Below are positions 49,190-55,794 of a stretch of DNA of 64,000 nucleotides, one piece after another. The notes below the pieces were generated by a model. The model saw only the letters and a program-made list of their open reading frames with translations. It did no database searches and had not been told where the DNA came from. Origin of the DNA: Prevotella sp. E9-3 (lineage in GTDB: Bacteria; Bacteroidota; Bacteroidia; Bacteroidales; Bacteroidaceae); assembly GCF_022024015.1 (NCBI RefSeq), contig NZ_CP091786.1, positions 496,001 through 560,000 on the forward strand. The letters run 5' to 3'. Every line of letters begins with the position of its first letter. Position 1 is the stretch's first letter. The translations under genes were made by a program, and so were the position numbers.

Positions 49190-49845
49190 GATTCGACATC
49201 GACCTATATTCCGACAACCTCATGCTTCCAGAGGATGAACTGCGGGCCAAACAGGTGGCTCCTCAGGTCATCCGCCGTATTGTGCGACTGCGCGACATCT
49301 ACAACTATATGTTGCGCAACCCGCTGAAGAAAGACCGCGAATACATAGACTACATACAAGCTTCATACGTCGATGCCGACGGCAAGCAGCTGTCGAAGCG
49401 AAAGGCCTATGAAGACATCGAGATCCTTCATGCCATTATCGGCAACTTGCAGCAATGCAGCAAAGAGTGGCACCGATGGCGCTTTAACAACATGATCATG
49501 GAGGGCTATGCCATCGCCCTACGTAAAGAGGATGCTGCAGCCATCGCCAAGCTGGCACAGCAGTATGGTAAGTACAACCAGCTCGACAAGAACGATGAGC
49601 GGGACAAGGGCTATGGCGAGATTCCCAGAATCGTGTTTACTTTCGACGTGTCGAAGATGGGCTTTCAGCCTATTGCCAACCTGCTGCACGTCATCGCCGA
49701 GCTGGAGGCGCACTTCACGCACTCCAGCTACAACCGTGTGGTGGAGGATGCCGACGTGGTGGAGCTGACGGATGCCGTGGCTGAGAAGGAGAAACAGGTG
49801 ACCAAACAGATAGAAGCACATGACGACACAGGAACAATATCTTAA
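49186..49845 (+). CDS. Phage packaging-module protein
   Basis: 219 residues from ATG 49186 (ATGA overlap with the previous stop). A GTG at 49156 would extend it into the previous gene and is less likely. Helical, with a KRKAYEDIEILHAIIGNLQQ segment resembling a helix-turn-helix region and a Lys/Asp-rich middle (YNQLDKNDERDKGYGEIPRI). It overlaps the terminase large subunit by 26 nt. It may be part of the terminase holoenzyme; no family name can be given. Confidence 0.68.
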   Translation: MRFDIDLYSDNLMLPEDELRAKQVAPQVIRRIVRLRDIYNYMLRNPLKKDREYIDYIQASYVDADGKQLSKRKAYEDIEILHAIIGNLQQCSKEWHRWRFNNMIMEGYAIALRKEDAAAIAKLAQQYGKYNQLDKNDERDKGYGEIPRIVFTFDVSKMGFQPIANLLHVIAELEAHFTHSSYNRVVEDADVVELTDAVAEKEKQVTKQIEAHDDTGTIS

Positions 49846-51448
49846 CCCGGCACAGGCCTATATGTTGGCCCTGCTCACCAAGGACATGACCATGGTGGGC
49901 GGGCGTGGCATCGGCAAGGGCCTCATTGCCGCCTCGCTGCTGCGCCGCAACGTCGAGGGGATGCCGGGCAGCAACACGGCCCTGGTAGGCCCGAACAGCA
50001 AGCGCATGTGGACGAACATCATCCCGTCATGGGACACGCACCTGCGCCGCTGGGGGTTCGTTGAGAATGTTCACTATGCCTGGGGAAAGAAACCAGCGAA
50101 AGACTGGGGGTGGAAAGACCCCATCATCAAGCCGATGAACTGGGAAAACACATTGTCGTTCTGGAACGGCAGCTATGCCACAGTCATCAGCCAGGACCGC
50201 AAAGGCACCTCCAACTCGCAGAGCTTCGACTTCGTGCTGATTGACGAGGCAAAGTTCATCGACTTCGAGCAGCTGAAGGATGAAACCTACCCCGCCAACC
50301 GTGGTAACGGCAATGCATTCGGACATCTTTATTATCACCACGGCATCTGCAAGTTCTCCGACATGCCCACCACCAAGAAAGGCTCGTGGTTCCTGAATGA
50401 CCGCGAGAAATGCGACCCGGAGAAGGTCAAGATGCTTGAAGGACTGATACTGGAACTGTCGCTGGTGAAGAAACGGCTGGCCGATATGGTGGCCGCCCAT
50501 CAGCGGCCATCGTCTGCAGAGCTGCACTATCTGCGCCGACTGTCGCGCACGGTGAACATGCTGCGTGCCGAAACCTATCTCTATAAGGAGTTCTCGAGCA
50601 TCCAGAATCTGGAGATCCTGGGCGAGGAGTTCATCCGCCAATGCTATCGCGACATGCCACCGGCCACGTTCCGCACCACCATCATGTGCCGACGCGTGGA
50701 ACACAGCGAAGACAGCTTCTATAATGCCAAGACCGACCGTAACCTCTATACGGCTGTCGACAAGAACTACATCGACTCGCTGGGCTTCGACATGGACAAG
50801 CTGCGCCATGTGGACTGCCGCACAGATGCAGACATCATACCCACGGAACCACTCTGGGTGAGCATGGACGCCAATGCGAATATCAACTGGGCAGTCATCG
50901 GACAGCCAGGAGCCGATATGAAGCTGCGCATCCTGAAATCGTTTTTCGTGAAATATGAGCGGCGACTTCCGGAACTGGTTGATGACATCTGCCTGTATTA
51001 TGGCCCGCTGAAACACAAGGAGGTGGTGTTCGCTTTTGATTCAACGTTTGTGGGCAACAACTATGGCGTTTCAAAGGCCGACTTCCACACCATCGTCACA
51101 CAGCGCTTCATTGATCATGGGTGGGTGGTCCACGAAGTTTATATCGGCCAGCCCTGGCAGCACCCTGTGAAGCAGCAGCTCATCAACGGCATGTTCCTCG
51201 GCCAGCGCACTTACCGTATACTAATCAACGAGGAGAATAATCCGGATCTGCTGAACTCCATCGACTCGGCCATGACCATCAATGGTACCAACCTGAAGGA
51301 CAAGAGCGGCGAGAAGAAGCCTGAGACAGAGGAAGACCCCTTGCAGGGGCGCACTGACGGCTCTGATGCGTTCGACACGCTGTGCATCGCTGTGGAGATT
51401 GGTAATGCTCCTGTCTATGGCGGCGGTGGGGGTGGCGGCATTATGTAG
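49820..51448 (+). CDS. Terminase large subunit
   Basis: 542 residues. The N-terminal ATPase has Walker A GGRGIGKG (about 27-34) and Walker B FVLIDEAKF (about 137-145). The C-terminal RNase H-like nuclease has acidic positions in SMDANANINW (about 349), VFAFDSTF (about 404) and GSDAFDTL (about 514-521). All key motifs of a TerL packaging motor are in place. The C-terminus ends in PVYGGGGGGGIM, an unusual poly-Gly tail. After the stop a hairpin (51497-51525) precedes a coding-free stretch of about 700 bp. Confidence 0.94.
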   Translation: MTTQEQYLNPAQAYMLALLTKDMTMVGGRGIGKGLIAASLLRRNVEGMPGSNTALVGPNSKRMWTNIIPSWDTHLRRWGFVENVHYAWGKKPAKDWGWKDPIIKPMNWENTLSFWNGSYATVISQDRKGTSNSQSFDFVLIDEAKFIDFEQLKDETYPANRGNGNAFGHLYYHHGICKFSDMPTTKKGSWFLNDREKCDPEKVKMLEGLILELSLVKKRLADMVAAHQRPSSAELHYLRRLSRTVNMLRAETYLYKEFSSIQNLEILGEEFIRQCYRDMPPATFRTTIMCRRVEHSEDSFYNAKTDRNLYTAVDKNYIDSLGFDMDKLRHVDCRTDADIIPTEPLWVSMDANANINWAVIGQPGADMKLRILKSFFVKYERRLPELVDDICLYYGPLKHKEVVFAFDSTFVGNNYGVSKADFHTIVTQRFIDHGWVVHEVYIGQPWQHPVKQQLINGMFLGQRTYRILINEENNPDLLNSIDSAMTINGTNLKDKSGEKKPETEEDPLQGRTDGSDAFDTLCIAVEIGNAPVYGGGGGGGIM

Positions 51449-51604: not shown

Positions 51605-52096
51605 GCGCCCACCGTGCCCCGCCCGCCCTGAGCCGCTCGCTTGGACGCTCGTGCCCGGGGACGGTGGGCGCTTCTATCTCTTCTATATTTGCAACTGTCA
51701 GGGCGGGCGTCTATTGGCTTATACCAGTGGACTTCAGTGGGTGATGGTCGCCCATGGGCGCGGGGCGTCTCGGCTTCAGGGTGGCATCGGTGAGACTAAA
51801 GAGGTGGGCTTTGACCGCAAACGGCTCTCTTTTGCCTCGGTTGAACCTACCATGATTATTCCATTTCTTGGCGGTGGCTGGCAAGGGCTGTGCAGAGCTG
51901 GATGTCTCGTGTGGGTCATGCCGTTGTTTATGGCTCCTTGTGCAATCCCCTTGCCGGGCTTCATCATTTTTACTTTGCAAAGTTAGCGCAGGCGGCATCC
52001 TGCAAGGTCGTGCTGCAGTTGGCTCGGAATTTTTTCAAGGAATTTGGGGTGCAGTGGCGCCGGAAACCAAATTCCCAAGGCTCAGGGCTTGAAAAA
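51605..52096 (+). ncRNA. Candidate structured RNA with pseudoknot (region 51449-52208 has no gene)
   Basis: GCGCCCACCGT (51605-51615) pairs perfectly with 51661-51671. GCCCGCCCTGA (51621-51631), inside that loop, pairs perfectly with 51698-51708 outside it, giving an H-type pseudoknot of two 11-bp helices. Further pairs: GGCAAGGG (51880-51887) with 51948-51955; GCAGG (51988-51992) with 51999-52003; TTTTTCAA (52031-52038) with 52089-52096, enclosing GGAATTTGG (52039-52047) with 52067-52075. ORFs here are short and of non-protein-like composition. A -7-like TATATTTG (51684-51691) lies inside the knot without a good -33, so an alternative start there is possible. Confidence 0.55.
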
Positions 52097-52430: not shown

Positions 52431-52470
52431 GTCATCAACATTGTATCACCCTATAACAACAGTCACAACT

Positions 52471-52995
52471 ATGAAAGAGAAAATGATCATCGTCAATCAG
52501 GTTAAGTCGAACCGCTCAGAATTTATGGTTTGGCAGGTTGCAATCACCGGGGAACCATTCGCACAGTACTGCAAGAGCCCCCTTAAAGCCCTTCGATTCG
52601 CCTTCATGCTAAAAAAATCCAAGGGCGTGAAGATTGCAATGGAAAGTATTGCCACCCTCCAACAGGAAATCAGCCGCCAGAAAGAGGCAGAGCAAAAGAA
52701 AAGCGATGCAGAACATGTCGAACTCGAAGAGCTGTCTGCAACGGTGCGCCAGTTCAAGGAGCTGAAAGCCAAGCATCCCGACGCTCTTTTCCTATTCAGG
52801 GAAGATGACTTCTACACGGCCTATTCAGAGGATGCAGAGTGCATCAGCGAGCTCCTGGATATAGTCATCACCAGGAAAGGTAAGCGCAACACAGCCTCGT
52901 TTCCGAAGCATGCCCTCGATACCTATCTGCCGAAACTGGTCAAGGCTGGCAAACGAATCGCTATCTGTGACACTAACAATGAGGCTGCTGCGTAG
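52471..52995 (+). CDS. MutS domain I-like protein
   Basis: 174 residues from ATG 52471. Residues about 55-90 form a helix/coiled coil. Residues about 92-167 match the N-terminal mismatch-recognition domain of Mut[21 protein letters not shown], then [20 protein letters not shown], and [20 protein letters not shown] followed by AICD. In MutS the Phe-x-Glu motif contacts the mismatch; here it reads F-Y-T (Phe114, Thr116), so mismatch binding may be lost. No clamp or ATPase domain follows. Such orphan domains occur on Bacteroidales mobile elements. Its role is unknown. Confidence 0.8.
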
Positions 52996-53032
52996 GCGGC
53001 CTCTTTTCATTAACCCTATAAAAGAAAACGCC

Positions 53033-53563
53033 ATGATGCAATTTGCCTTGTTCGATTACATTCCAAAGCGGAACCTGCGCCGTGCCTCATTTGAGCAGCA
53101 GGACATTAGCCGGATGATTCTCGGCTTCAAGGATGGCCGCAATGTCTACACACGATGGGCTGCGCATGAAGTCTGCCGGGCAATCAGGCTGATGGACCTT
53201 ACTGACACAGTCCTGGTTTGTATTCCGGCAAGCACGATCTACAGCCATGTGCGGCGTTGGAAGCGGTTCGCTCAGTTGGTGTGCCGCCTGTCGGGCATGC
53301 AGAATGGTTTCGACCGCGTACAGGTCAGCGGTAGCCGCAAGCGGGCACACGTCACTGGCGAGTACGAGCTTTGCACCAACATCAAGCATTACGTTCATAT
53401 CGACAATGACTTCTTCAGAGGTAAAAAGGTGTTAGTCATTGACGACATCTACACTACTGGACAGTCATCCAGGGCGTTCATCGGCGCAATGCAAGCTGCT
53501 GGTGCAGACGTGCAGATGGCACTGTTTCTGGCGAAGACAAAACTGTTCTGCAGGAGCAGATGA
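53033..53563 (+). CDS. Phosphoribosyltransferase (type I, ComF-like)
   Basis: 176 residues from ATG 53033 (53036 also possible). The PRPP-binding loop is KVLVIDDIYTTGQSS (about 131-145), the hallmark of type I phosphoribosyltransferases. The earlier TVLVCIPASTIYSHVRRWKR and NGFDRVQVSGSRKRAH segments fit the flexible loop region. Length and basic patches resemble ComF or a phage PRTase. The stop codon borders directly on the large structured RNA region. Substrate unknown. Confidence 0.82.
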   Translation: MMQFALFDYIPKRNLRRASFEQQDISRMILGFKDGRNVYTRWAAHEVCRAIRLMDLTDTVLVCIPASTIYSHVRRWKRFAQLVCRLSGMQNGFDRVQVSGSRKRAHVTGEYELCTNIKHYVHIDNDFFRGKKVLVIDDIYTTGQSSRAFIGAMQAAGADVQMALFLAKTKLFCRSR

Positions 53564-53567
53564 CTAC

Positions 53568-53610
53568 TTCGCTTATTCAGCGACCTGATGCTTATGGCCT
53601 CGCGGCCATC
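53568..53610 (+). repeat. Double-hairpin module A
   Basis: TCGCT-TATTC-AGCGA (53569-53583), linker CCTGATGCTT, then ATGGCC-TCGC-GGCCAT (53594-53609). Begins five bases after the PRTase stop. Confidence 0.85.
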
Positions 53611-54011
53611 TTCTTGCCCACCCTCGACCCCCTGCGCACCTAAACGCTCATGCTTCGACACTGGCGGTAAGTCACCACCAGAGTCATTCGCGTTCTGCAA
53701 ACAGGACGCCCACCATGCAGCCCACCCCCGCACGGCCTGCTCTCGCTCCTTTCCGTTGCACATGAGCCGAGGGAAGAGCCTTGGCGGCTGTCAGGTGGTG
53801 GTTCGGACGGGCGAGTACCTGACATTGGGAGGTCAGGCACACGTCCGCCACGTTCCGCACCCTACCACCGCGAAACACCGCCACTTGACAGCCAGGCACA
53901 TCCCTCGGCTGATGCTCCACTACACTCCGCGGTTCCGGCTGTGCTGGGGTGGGCTGCATCGTGCCACCCTGTTTGTACGGCTGTTGCCGTGAAGGTGCTT
54001 GCCTGATTGTT

Positions 54012-54055
54012 TTCGCCTATTCGGCGACTCTGTGCTTATGCCCTTTACGGGCATC
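54012..54055 (+). repeat. Double-hairpin module B
   Basis: TCGCC-TATTC-GGCGA (54013-54027), linker CTCTGTGCTT, then ATGCCC-TTTAC-GGGCAT (54038-54054). Both stems differ from module A by paired changes. Confidence 0.85.
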
Positions 54056-54064
54056 TCAGGCTTC

Positions 54065-54108
54065 TTCGCTTATTCAGCGACCTTATGCTTATGGCCTTGA
54101 CGGCCATC
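54065..54108 (+). repeat. Double-hairpin module C
   Basis: TCGCT-TATTC-AGCGA (54066-54080), linker CCTTATGCTT, then ATGGCC-TTGAC-GGCCAT (54091-54107). Closest to module A. Confidence 0.85.
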
Positions 54109-54274
54109 TGTCGTTTCTGCTGAAAGAGGCTACGCCACATTCAGCAGAGTGGTTTGCAGAAGTGGGATAACAGGAAGCAGATAATGGGCAACTCTCTGGC
54201 TCTGGGGGAGCCGGCGTTTATGCTCATTATCTGCTTCCTGCCACCCCACACCTGCCTGTAACCGTCAACGGCTC

Positions 54275-54315
54275 TTCGGCTACTCGCCGACTATATGCTT
54301 ATGGCCATAGCCATA
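54275..54315 (+). repeat. Double-hairpin module D
   Basis: TCGGC-TACTC-GCCGA (54276-54290), linker CTATATGCTT, then ATGGC-CATA-GCCAT (54301-54314). The first stem has swapped its base pairs relative to the other modules while keeping pairing. Confidence 0.85.
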
Positions 54316-54708
54316 CACGTTTCAGCACGAAGTGGCCTAACATAGGCCACCTCTTGCTGACTTACAAGCAAGAATGACTCGTCATACTTGCACACGACCG
54401 CAAACGGCGTGCCAGCGGCACCCCCAGCCTTTGACTTGTTTGTTAATGGGTGTTAATACATATACCGCCCGTTTTCAAGGGGTGTAATTACATTTTGGGC
54501 GTAGGGCGGTGTCGGGGTCGGTTACGACAAACTACCTTGCTCGTCCAAGGTAGCGAAGACGTTCTGTTTGGGTATCAGCCTTTTACGAAAAATCGGTGTT
54601 CACAACTTTTTCAGGCTGATGGGAGTGTAATTGCACTGGCGAGCGGCTGCAGCTGTCGCTTTCTTGCTCTGGCAAGCGACCTTTTTGGTCGAGCGGCCGT
54701 TGTTTCGC

Positions 54709-54739
54709 TTGGCAGATTCGGGGAAAATGTGTACCTTTG
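54709..54739 (+). promoter_or_regulatory. Promoter of a short phage sRNA
   Basis: TTGG (54709-54712), a 19-nt spacer and TACCTTTG (54732-54739). Confidence 0.65.
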
Positions 54740-54742
54740 CAG

Positions 54743-54815
54743 CGTAGTTTCCCTACTACGTTATATTTGAAAACCAAGAATACAGTCCCCTGCTTGCGAA
54801 AGTAGGGGATTTTTC
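54743..54815 (+). ncRNA. Candidate small RNA of about 72 nt
   Basis: Directly after a good promoter come hairpin CGTAGT-TTCCCT-ACTACG (54743-54760), an unpaired A-rich middle, and an intrinsic terminator: CCCCTGCTT (54787-54795), GCGA tetraloop, AAGTAGGGG (54800-54808) and ATTTTTC. There is no ORF of note. It could be a regulatory sRNA, or a leader with an attenuator for the 54855 gene. Confidence 0.55.
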
Positions 54816-54824
54816 ATACCTTTG
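54794..54824 (+). promoter_or_regulatory. Promoter of the small membrane-protein pair
   Basis: TTGC (54794-54797), 19 nt, TACCTTTG (54817-54824). Its -33 box lies in the terminator stem of the upstream sRNA, so termination and initiation are physically interlocked. Confidence 0.6.
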
Positions 54825-54854
54825 CAGCCACGTTTCATTTAAACCTGATATGAT

Positions 54855-55058
54855 ATGCTTTATGTAGGATTATTTTTAGTAGCAGCAATCGCTCTGATTG
54901 CAGGTATGTCAGCTATTGACGAAGCTTCAAAACAGCGTGAAGGAGCTAATAGTGGAACGGCTATGATTGTCGGTTTTTTCTTTAGCCCTCTGGCTGGGTT
55001 CCTCTACTGTCTCTGTTTCCCAGAGAAAAAAAAGAATGTTAAAGAAGAAAACAAATAG
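54855..55058 (+). CDS. Small membrane protein (paralogue 1)
   Basis: 67 residues with two hydrophobic helices (MLYVGLFLVAAIALIAGMSA and AMIVGFFFSPLAGFLYCLCF) joined by a polar loop, and a Lys/Glu-rich C-terminal tail. SPLAGFLYCLCFPEKKK is matched by SPIGGLLYVLCFPPKRR in the next gene. In phages, small two-helix proteins can be holins or superinfection-exclusion factors. No lysin is nearby, so the role stays open. Confidence 0.75.
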   Translation: MLYVGLFLVAAIALIAGMSAIDEASKQREGANSGTAMIVGFFFSPLAGFLYCLCFPEKKKNVKEENK

Positions 55059-55063
55059 CTGAT

Positions 55064-55237
55064 ATGGATGGTGTCTTAGGCTTCCTTGGTATTGTATACC
55101 TATTCGGCATTTTCGTTGTGACGAATGCAGCAAGAGAACGGGATTGTGACATGTTGATGGTGGTGCTCGCCTCCATTATTTTGTCGCCCATTGGTGGTCT
55201 CTTGTATGTACTTTGCTTCCCTCCAAAACGGAGGTAA
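55064..55237 (+). CDS. Small membrane protein (paralogue 2)
   Basis: 57 residues starting MDGVLGFLGIVYLFGIFVVT, with a polar loop NAARERDCD, and a second helix ending SPIGGLLYVLCFPPKRR. Starts 5 nt after the paralogue's stop. The common C-terminal motif SP(L/I)xGxLYxLCFPxK(R/K) indicates a tandem duplication. Confidence 0.75.
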   Translation: MDGVLGFLGIVYLFGIFVVTNAARERDCDMLMVVLASIILSPIGGLLYVLCFPPKRR

Positions 55238-55251
55238 ATGTCTCTTTCTTT

Positions 55252-55320
55252 CCAAATTTTGAGTCAAATTTGGGAAAAATGAGGTGGTTATTCAATTTTT
55301 CTGCTCGAAAATTTGAATAA
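55252..55320 (+). promoter_or_regulatory. Two AT-rich inverted repeats before the leader promoter
   Basis: CCAAATTT-TGAGTC-AAATTTGG (55252-55273) is perfect. TTATTCAATTTTT (55288-55300) and AAAATTTGAATAA (55308-55320) pair at 12 of 13 positions; the right arm covers the -33 box at 55312. Operator candidates; the first may also end the upstream transcript. Confidence 0.55.
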
Positions 55321-55343
55321 TCTAATTATTTGTTGTACCTTTG
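55312..55343 (+). promoter_or_regulatory. Promoter of the leader RNA
   Basis: TTTG (55312-55315), a 20-nt spacer and TACCTTTG (55336-55343). Transcription would begin at or next to the first copy of the 15-nt repeat at 55349. Confidence 0.7.
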
Positions 55344-55348
55344 CTCCC

Positions 55349-55568
55349 GCTTAACAGACAGTGGTAGACCACTCGGCAGGGCGCACGTCAGACGCCTGAG
55401 CATCATGCTGGGGCATTTTTTTTGCCCATAGTGCATCCGTATAACGGCTGCCATCTCGTAGATAGAACTGCCCTCTGGGTGAGTCACTGTCTGTTAAGCA
55501 ACGGGATGTGCAGCCGTTTCTCTGTATCTCCGTGCCGGCGAGGTTCACCGGCTGCTTAACAGACAGTG
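55349..55568 (+). promoter_or_regulatory. Candidate cis-regulatory RNA leader with three-copy switch repeat
   Basis: GCTTAACAGACAGTG occurs at 55349-55363 and 55554-55568, its exact inverse at 55485-55499. The middle copy can pair with the first (closing a 150-nt domain) or with the third, which lies 4 nt before the ATG at 55573 and so would cover the ribosome landing site. Inside are GGCAG (55374-55378) with CTGCC (55468-55472), a GGGCA-T7-TGCCC hairpin (55412-55428), GCAGCCG (55510-55516) with CGGCTGC (55549-55555) and GCCGG/CCGGC (about 55534-55552). This fills the 335-bp gap 55238-55572. A DNA-level role (inversion, protein binding) is the alternative. Confidence 0.6.
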
Positions 55569-55572
55569 CAAT

Positions 55573-55794
55573 ATGCAACAGACAATTCAGATCGGGCAGG
55601 TTCAGCCCTCAGTTCTTTCCAGATGGGAAAGTACTGTAGAGAACTTGAAAGTGTGGTGGAGTGCCACCAGCAACTCATTTACGGCCCTCTGTGCCACTGA
55701 CGAGGGCGAAGTGTTCACTCATGGCGACGTGGTGAAGGCTCACCTCGCGCTCACCGCAGTACTTATTTTAATAGGAATAGGAGGTGCGCTATGA
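55573..55794 (+). CDS. Small phage protein with C-terminal membrane segment
   Basis: 73 residues: MQQTIQIGQVQPSVLSRWES at the start and AHLALTAVLILIGIGGAL at the end, a probable single transmembrane helix. Its start is 4 nt from the third switch repeat. It overlaps the next gene by ATGA. No family recognised. Regulation through the leader is inferred. Confidence 0.65.
   Translation: MQQTIQIGQVQPSVLSRWESTVENLKVWWSATSNSFTALCATDEGEVFTHGDVVKAHLALTAVLILIGIGGAL

Follow-up and report, generated by a model that had tools for sequence, protein, structure and literature searches.

A locus in Prevotella sp. E9-3 carries an element of about 0.75 kb that comprises four double-hairpin modules, a core domain and a long rod (Table 1), and the best reading of the comparative sequence data is that it represents a new family of phage RNA, large in size and modular in build. 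Comparison across relatives demonstrates the domains themselves, two-sided changes in their stems, reordering and changes in copy number, and it shows the core to be linked with a phosphoribosyltransferase gene. In the model we favour, to which we assign a probability of roughly 40%, the modules, the core of some 390 nt and the rod would together form one multi-domain noncoding RNA, transcribed from the plus strand of the prophage and likely expressed late, which would probably act as a structural scaffold with the modules as repeated docking units. By the window we mean the whole stretch of DNA that was analysed, 64,000 nt of contig NZ_CP091786.1 (positions 496,001 to 560,000). Large, ornate RNAs of phages are so far known in a small number of classes, and what they do is still to be established. 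The family described here offers many natural variants in which domains are added, removed, reordered or repeated, so that the roles of the domains should be readable by comparison, and the linkage to a ShosT-like phosphoribosyltransferase supplies a first candidate partner.

Table 1. Positions of the element's domains and of neighbouring genes, in window coordinates.
Feature	Position	Strand	Description	Support
Primase gene	39712		In line with the element	
ClpP-type head maturation protease gene	44581		In line with the element	
Terminase large subunit gene	49820–51448	+		phrog_2, E=2e-7
MutS domain I protein gene, 184 aa	52441–52995		In line with the element	E=1.4e-22
Phosphoribosyltransferase gene, 176 aa	53033–53563	+	Directly upstream of the element	PADLOC ShosT, E=1e-10
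Double-hairpin module 1	53569–53609	+	Stem 1 TCGCT/AGCGA, loop TATTC, linker CCTGATGCTT, stem 2 ATGGCC/GGCCAT	Covariance model, E=7e-15
Core domain, 388 nt	53616–54003	+	GCCCACCCTC...CCCCTGCGCACC to GGTGCTTGCC, closed by GCACC/GGTGC	25-sequence alignment
Double-hairpin module 2	54013–54054	+		Covariance model, E=4e-14
Double-hairpin module 3	54066–54107	+		Covariance model, E=3e-16
Rod domain D2	54112–54266	+	Small hairpin and long duplex	Inverted repeat, 11-sequence alignment
Double-hairpin module 4	54276–54314	+		Covariance model, E=2e-10
Further predicted hairpin, 3′ side	54322–54360	+		Minimum-energy fold only
Separate conserved element of ~200 nt, downstream	54457–54662	+		93.7% identity in L007

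Double-hairpin modules and their relatives

The first-pass annotation had described four copies of a module with two stems, TATTC or TACTC loops and a 10-nt linker. All four are present, although their starts had been placed one base too far to the left (53568, 54012, 54065 and 54275), and the plan is borne out within the window, where the copies differ at pairs 4 and 5 of stem 1 and at pair 4 of stem 2, on both sides each time. A covariance model built from 44 copies, the window's own four included, matches the window at these four sites with E values from 3e-16 to 2e-10; the next-best match in the window has an E value of 0.88, and across the single-contig, 3.73-Mb genome of the strain the model finds only the same four copies. 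A pattern made of the linker and stem 2 gave two matches in the window and none in 100 shuffles. The four modules of the window are real and lie far above chance. The predicted fold of the region 53560–54365 (806 nt) has an energy of −379 kcal/mol.

The two-sided stem changes hold across the family. An alignment of 44 distinct copies, drawn from 14 loci, has 98.5% of its cells paired, and covariation in it reaches 0.355, compared with 0.111 after shuffling and no more than 0.050 when partners are slid. These copies had been selected on pairing, 7 of 51 candidates having been taken out by eye beforehand, and the pairing-free test is provided by the word TGCTTATG: both stems are found at 39 of the 53 such words inside 46 RNA spans, which include near-duplicates, as against 1 of 97 elsewhere, a control that is conservative because some of the loci in it were fetched by a match to stem 2. 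The annotation had allowed that related phages might hold nothing but degenerate, unpaired copies; they carry intact and paired ones.

The near-constancy ascribed to linker and loop extends to the whole family, except that the linker may be 9 nt long as well as 10 nt and the loop is mostly TANNC. Because the loop and the linker change so little while the stems drift, the modules look like points of contact, and a role as binding site or docking unit is plausible. Each double hairpin would then be one docking unit on the scaffold, in contact with other modules within an RNA-only particle or with one repeated protein. If the modules do dock, they would form a natural code for RNA assembly written in tandem repeats. 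Pairing of the loops with the core through TAYTC/GARTA was considered and dropped, since the loops differ inside one RNA (TATTC, TACTC and TATGC in L055).

The idea of the module as an independent unit had to be given up: every recognised copy, except a degraded one in genome G126, sits in a core-bearing element, and cores that lack modules are common. The G126 sequence (L094, 1500–1575) is a module-like remnant without a core, preceded by a lipoprotein-like lysis gene and followed by unrelated sequence.

Core, rod and the rearrangement of domains

In relatives the core is about 300–390 nt long and adjoins the modules. An A-type alignment of 25 sequences (from 40 distinct A/B cores, which form 31 clusters at 97%; six short B-type cores were left out) has 86 consensus pairs, with 95.5% of 2144 cells paired, a share that leans upward since this alignment also supplied the structure; the consensus structures of module and rod likewise come from their own alignments. 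Two-sided changes occur at 46 of these 86 pairs, against 23.3 after shuffling and at most 16 when slid, and covariation is 0.289, against 0.121 and at most 0.056. The 5′ stretch CCCRCCCTC...CCCCTGCGCACC and the 3′ stretch GGTGCTTGCC are nearly invariant, parts of both having been in the search pattern that fetched the sequences. Composition-corrected folding z scores average −7.1 (A, n=25), −8.4 (B, n=6) and −7.7 (C, n=6) on the plus strand, and −6.6, −5.7 and −6.5 on the minus strand. A protein-coding core was rejected: any one of the six frames stays open in 2 of the 25 cores at most, and 349 of the 385 gap runs in the alignment are not multiples of three. In the window itself an open frame of 134 aa overlies the core (53588–53992), which counts against the RNA reading, but the relatives do not keep it.

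The arms of rod D2, at 54156–54190 and 54221–54255, are 83% complementary over 35 nt. When 11 of the 12 known rods were aligned (that of L006, near-identical to the window's, was left out), two-sided changes were seen at 22 of 39 pairs, with covariation of 0.471 against 0.135. The outer arms differ in sequence between phages while their complementarity is nearly complete and the internal loop, GGCAACnCTnnGGCTC...GAGCCnnCGYTTATGC, is constant. Many module-free phages have another rod before the core, with an inner CCCGCCCACCCTGGGCCG...GCTTATGCCCGG, which may be a separate domain too; in L158, L177 and L199 a 5′ rod with CCCGCCC...GCCCGG is kept 3′ of the phosphoribosyltransferase gene, with no core seen. 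The motif TTATGSC is shared by modules, rod and 5′ rod, with 77 occurrences on the plus strand of the 46 spans (mostly in module copies) against 10 expected, and 4 on the minus strand. The conserved intergenic element at the downstream end of Table 1, which contains CATATACCGCC...GGGCGTAGGGCGGTG and CCTTGCTCGTCCAAGG, was dropped as a part of the RNA, for it persists in several loci without a core; it is possibly a regulatory or replication site.

The number and order of the domains vary widely. Modules are present in 9 of the 31 A/B core clusters (the window, L007, L012, L028, L055, L062, L074, L077 and L087) and in all four C-type records. They were not found in the other 22 A/B clusters, where some contigs end near the core, so that the core does not need them. 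The copy number runs from 1 to 10, the maximum being that of L055, and L077 has two modules before the core where L090 has four, though both cores cluster at 97%. D2 follows the core in the window, L055 and L111 and precedes it in L077, L087, L090 and L132. A tandem pair of cores is present in G116 and L005; by reading, the structured stretch of L005 extends over ~8.03–10.85 kb of its locus with an interruption near 8.4–8.8 kb, and where a 3′ part would be expected, L028 and L062 instead have a promoter-like box with a small open frame. It is likely that the element was built by the shuffling and repetition of self-contained RNA domains.

A bolder view would have the family behave like multidomain proteins, with RNAs from ~0.4 to ~2.8 kb (L005) whose domains are shuffled, duplicated and lost, and which form RNA particles or arm the adjacent defence-type phosphoribosyltransferase; we regard this as possible, if somewhat doubtful. 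The modules might also be an array or decoy that titrates an RNA-binding protein of host or phage, with a copy number that drifts with need. The variable stems around near-constant loops and linkers would suit such an array, as would the change from two to four copies between near relatives and the ten copies of L055, but the many A/B clusters in which no module was seen argue against it, and we think it unlikely.

Strand, expression and the adjacent phosphoribosyltransferase

With primase, head protease and terminase genes in line with the element, the locus is read as a prophage. The likely late expression of the scaffold RNA in our favoured model is suggested by where the element lies, in a row with the terminase and head genes or, in phages of the C type, behind an amidase gene. 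The orientation of the element with its flanking genes was counted in favour of the plus strand. Eight of the 53 loci examined (L101, L102, L108, L110, L112, L122, L134 and L142) have an intrinsic terminator on the plus strand, 6–7 nt past the core; the scan had returned ten loci, from which L055 and L140 were removed as their hairpin is a module. The sequence TAnnTTTG is the −7 consensus of Bacteroidota. Such boxes, where they occur within 900 nt downstream of the core, are mostly on the plus strand, being on the minus strand in 2 of 54 loci, and upstream a plus-strand box within 900 nt was seen in just 3 of the 54; the 53–54 loci of these scans include near-duplicates and several loci per record. 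Seven loci (L101, L102, L108, L110, L112, L134 and L142) have a plus-strand box ~100 nt past the core and terminator, together with an apparent small cargo gene, and the stretch past the core is a possible insertion hotspot in these phages.

Other measures are divided between the strands. On the plus strand of the core, a swap between U-G and G-U is kept at one pair (15 and 8), U-G is present in 24 of 25 sequences at another, and wobble pairs prevail at three positions; G-U cells number 31 and A-C cells 47 in the Watson-Crick columns. Raw folding energy is lower on the minus strand in 23 of 25 A cores, the composition-corrected z score favours the plus strand in 24 of 37 sequences, and the rod folds have 53 G-U pairs on the plus strand against 47 on the minus strand. 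Base-pair statistics, energy and unpaired composition do not settle the strand.

The annotation had treated two-sided changes as evidence of selection on RNA pairing; as proof, this is too strong, given these core counts and the rarity of wobble in the modules (three G-U and three A-C cells). Because wobble is rare and G-U shows no excess over A-C, template-switch mutation could account for the local hairpins. Template switching is able to create and maintain hairpins, according to the accessible part of PMC8794818, and scarce wobble cells fit repair by this route, so that module stems could persist without selection on RNA. The element would then consist of DNA hairpins used in replication, packaging or recombination, or of repeats maintained by template switching with no function as RNA. 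We judge this quite improbable, as pairs at least 140 columns apart in the core alignment also change on both sides (13 of 27 pairs and 45 cells, a count without a separate control), which template switching explains less well, and as the three core positions dominated by wobble, the rod alignment (18 G-U cells against 7 A-C) and the terminators past the core all point to RNA. The same terminators, and the position of the element directly after a gene and in line with it, would be expected of a long structured 3′ untranslated region that merely stabilises or ends a late messenger RNA. The size, conserved unpaired stretches, tandem cores and domain shuffling would exceed the needs of a stabiliser, however, and this explanation appears highly unlikely.

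The phosphoribosyltransferase matches ShosT over residues 27–170 and also the PsyrT model of PADLOC (3e-7), and it weakly matches solved phosphoribosyltransferases, ShosT among them. A search from the protein found 52 viral loci, in which it is 60–98% identical to that of the window while the terminase is often at 45–50%. In 37 of the 46 loci that could be tested, those with at least 700 nt downstream of the gene, the core follows the gene at a distance of 37–414 nt and in the same orientation (L193 and L196 are weak and divergent); three of the six uncounted loci also show a core. For the nine testable loci that gave no match, reading of the sequences shows a divergent core in L194 and a divergent structured-looking stretch in L189 and L191, whilst L158, L166, L177, L185, L192 and L199 keep the gene with no core seen downstream, and in those six loci the core is thus dispensable. 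The gene was unmatched in the records of L005, L052, L058 and L123, which may be fragments, and in genome G116, which is 55% complete.

This linkage raises the prospect of a protein-RNA control pair, in which the RNA would bind the ShosT/PsyrT-like phosphoribosyltransferase and hold or activate it, the modules resembling the repeats of type III antitoxins or a retron-like sensor. The regular position of the core after the gene, the matches to ShosT and PsyrT, the tandem hairpins and the conservation of the protein relative to the terminase are all consistent with such a pair, but it fits poorly with the six loci that have a gene and no recognisable core, and with the C-type phages (L005, L052, L058 and G116) and L123, which have a core in records, possibly incomplete, where the gene is unmatched. 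In type III systems, moreover, the gene order is opposite to that seen here. On balance we consider a control pair improbable.

In the accessible part of PMC9122126, DprA homologues are the antitoxins of shosTA, and phosphoribosyltransferases are probable retron effectors. For such an antitoxin, a PADLOC scan of five other neighbouring proteins gave no match; the products at 54855 and 55064 match nothing in Pfam, PHROGs or PADLOC, and those at 52044 and 55573 nothing in PADLOC. The isolated MutS domain I in a phage protein of 184 aa is unusual, and homologues of it are present in most relatives.

Known RNAs and distribution of the family

The view that no described motif has this form stands, in that no Rfam family matches the element. 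Rfam covariance models, including those of ROOL and GOLLD, gave no match at gathering score in the window or in L005; when hits with E values as high as 5 were admitted, microRNA families alone appeared within 53000–55600 (at the rod), and once elsewhere in L055, and a known RNA family was rejected. The accessible part of PMC12286853 states that Rfam has profiles for ROOL, GOLLD and OLE, that ROOL is an elaborate RNA of several hundred nt borne by phages and prophages with no known function, and that GOLLD, likewise large, ornate and phage-borne, combines a conserved region with a variable one and exceeds 800 nt in many members. The element resembles ROOL in a length of several hundred nt, a predicted elaborate structure and a prophage setting (terminase, head protease and primase in line), and differs from it in the lack of an Rfam match, the tandem double-hairpin modules and the reordered domains; there are no tRNA genes in the window, tRNA islands being a frequent though not obligatory neighbour of ROOL. 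As in GOLLD, the prediction is of a large ornate phage RNA with conserved and variable parts, but here Rfam gives no match and the conserved part is a core flanked by accessory domains rather than a 3′ region. Two further hallmarks of these classes are the homo-oligomeric cage of ROOL and, for GOLLD, an expression that rises during phage lysis.

Type III toxin-antitoxin systems (ToxIN, CptIN) are described in the accessible parts of PMC8860590 and PMC4627078 as short structured RNA repeats beside a protein gene. The element also has repeated structured RNA units next to a protein gene, but its unit is a double hairpin, its neighbour is a phosphoribosyltransferase and not an endoribonuclease, and most related cores have no repeats. 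No endoribonuclease of the ToxN, CptN or TenpN type was found beside the repeats, where 52441–52995 and 53033–53563 encode the MutS domain I protein and the phosphoribosyltransferase. The likeness to ShosTA and PsyrTA lies in the adjoining ShosT-related phosphoribosyltransferase. REP and BIME palindromes are short hairpins of fixed plan that occur repeatedly. Unlike these and MITEs, the modules are not dispersed (four copies at one locus of the genome) and are embedded in a large conserved element.

The core is found in dozens of IMG/VR phage contigs. Its pattern picked out 41 viral stretches, at least four of them by chance (L103, L116, L120 and L127), and matched 11 of the 398 genus genomes, that of the strain included, against none with the reversed pattern; in an order-wide sample of 198 genomes the strain's own was the sole match, the other 197 having none. 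The C-type core pattern matched three viral stretches and 1 of the 398 genus genomes. A strict module pattern gave four viral stretches and 11 genome matches, of which one (L012) is a true relative and ten (L009–L011 and L013–L019) were judged to be chance, and a looser one gave 76 viral stretches, 13 of them (on 12 contigs) taken as real from stems and context and the other 63 as chance. With the module covariance model, four matches were obtained in 150 genus genomes; one, in G137 (L095), was rejected as apparently inside a gene, leaving three genomes with modules, one of these a remnant. The same model matched the strain's own genome alone in an order-wide sample of 393 genomes. No match was obtained by blastn of 53000–55600 against 50,697 phage records, from which those closest to the window were possibly left out. 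Nothing recognisable as this element appeared in the accessible parts of open-licence papers on relatives of GOLLD and ROOL, on RNAs of Prevotella or Bacteroidetes phages, on phosphoribosyltransferase-linked RNA, or on large noncoding RNA since 2024; a 2021 survey of the human microbiome lists, in its accessible part, 3161 candidates of 27–219 bp. In L141, from the same genus as the window, the sequence upstream of the core is the same as in L012.
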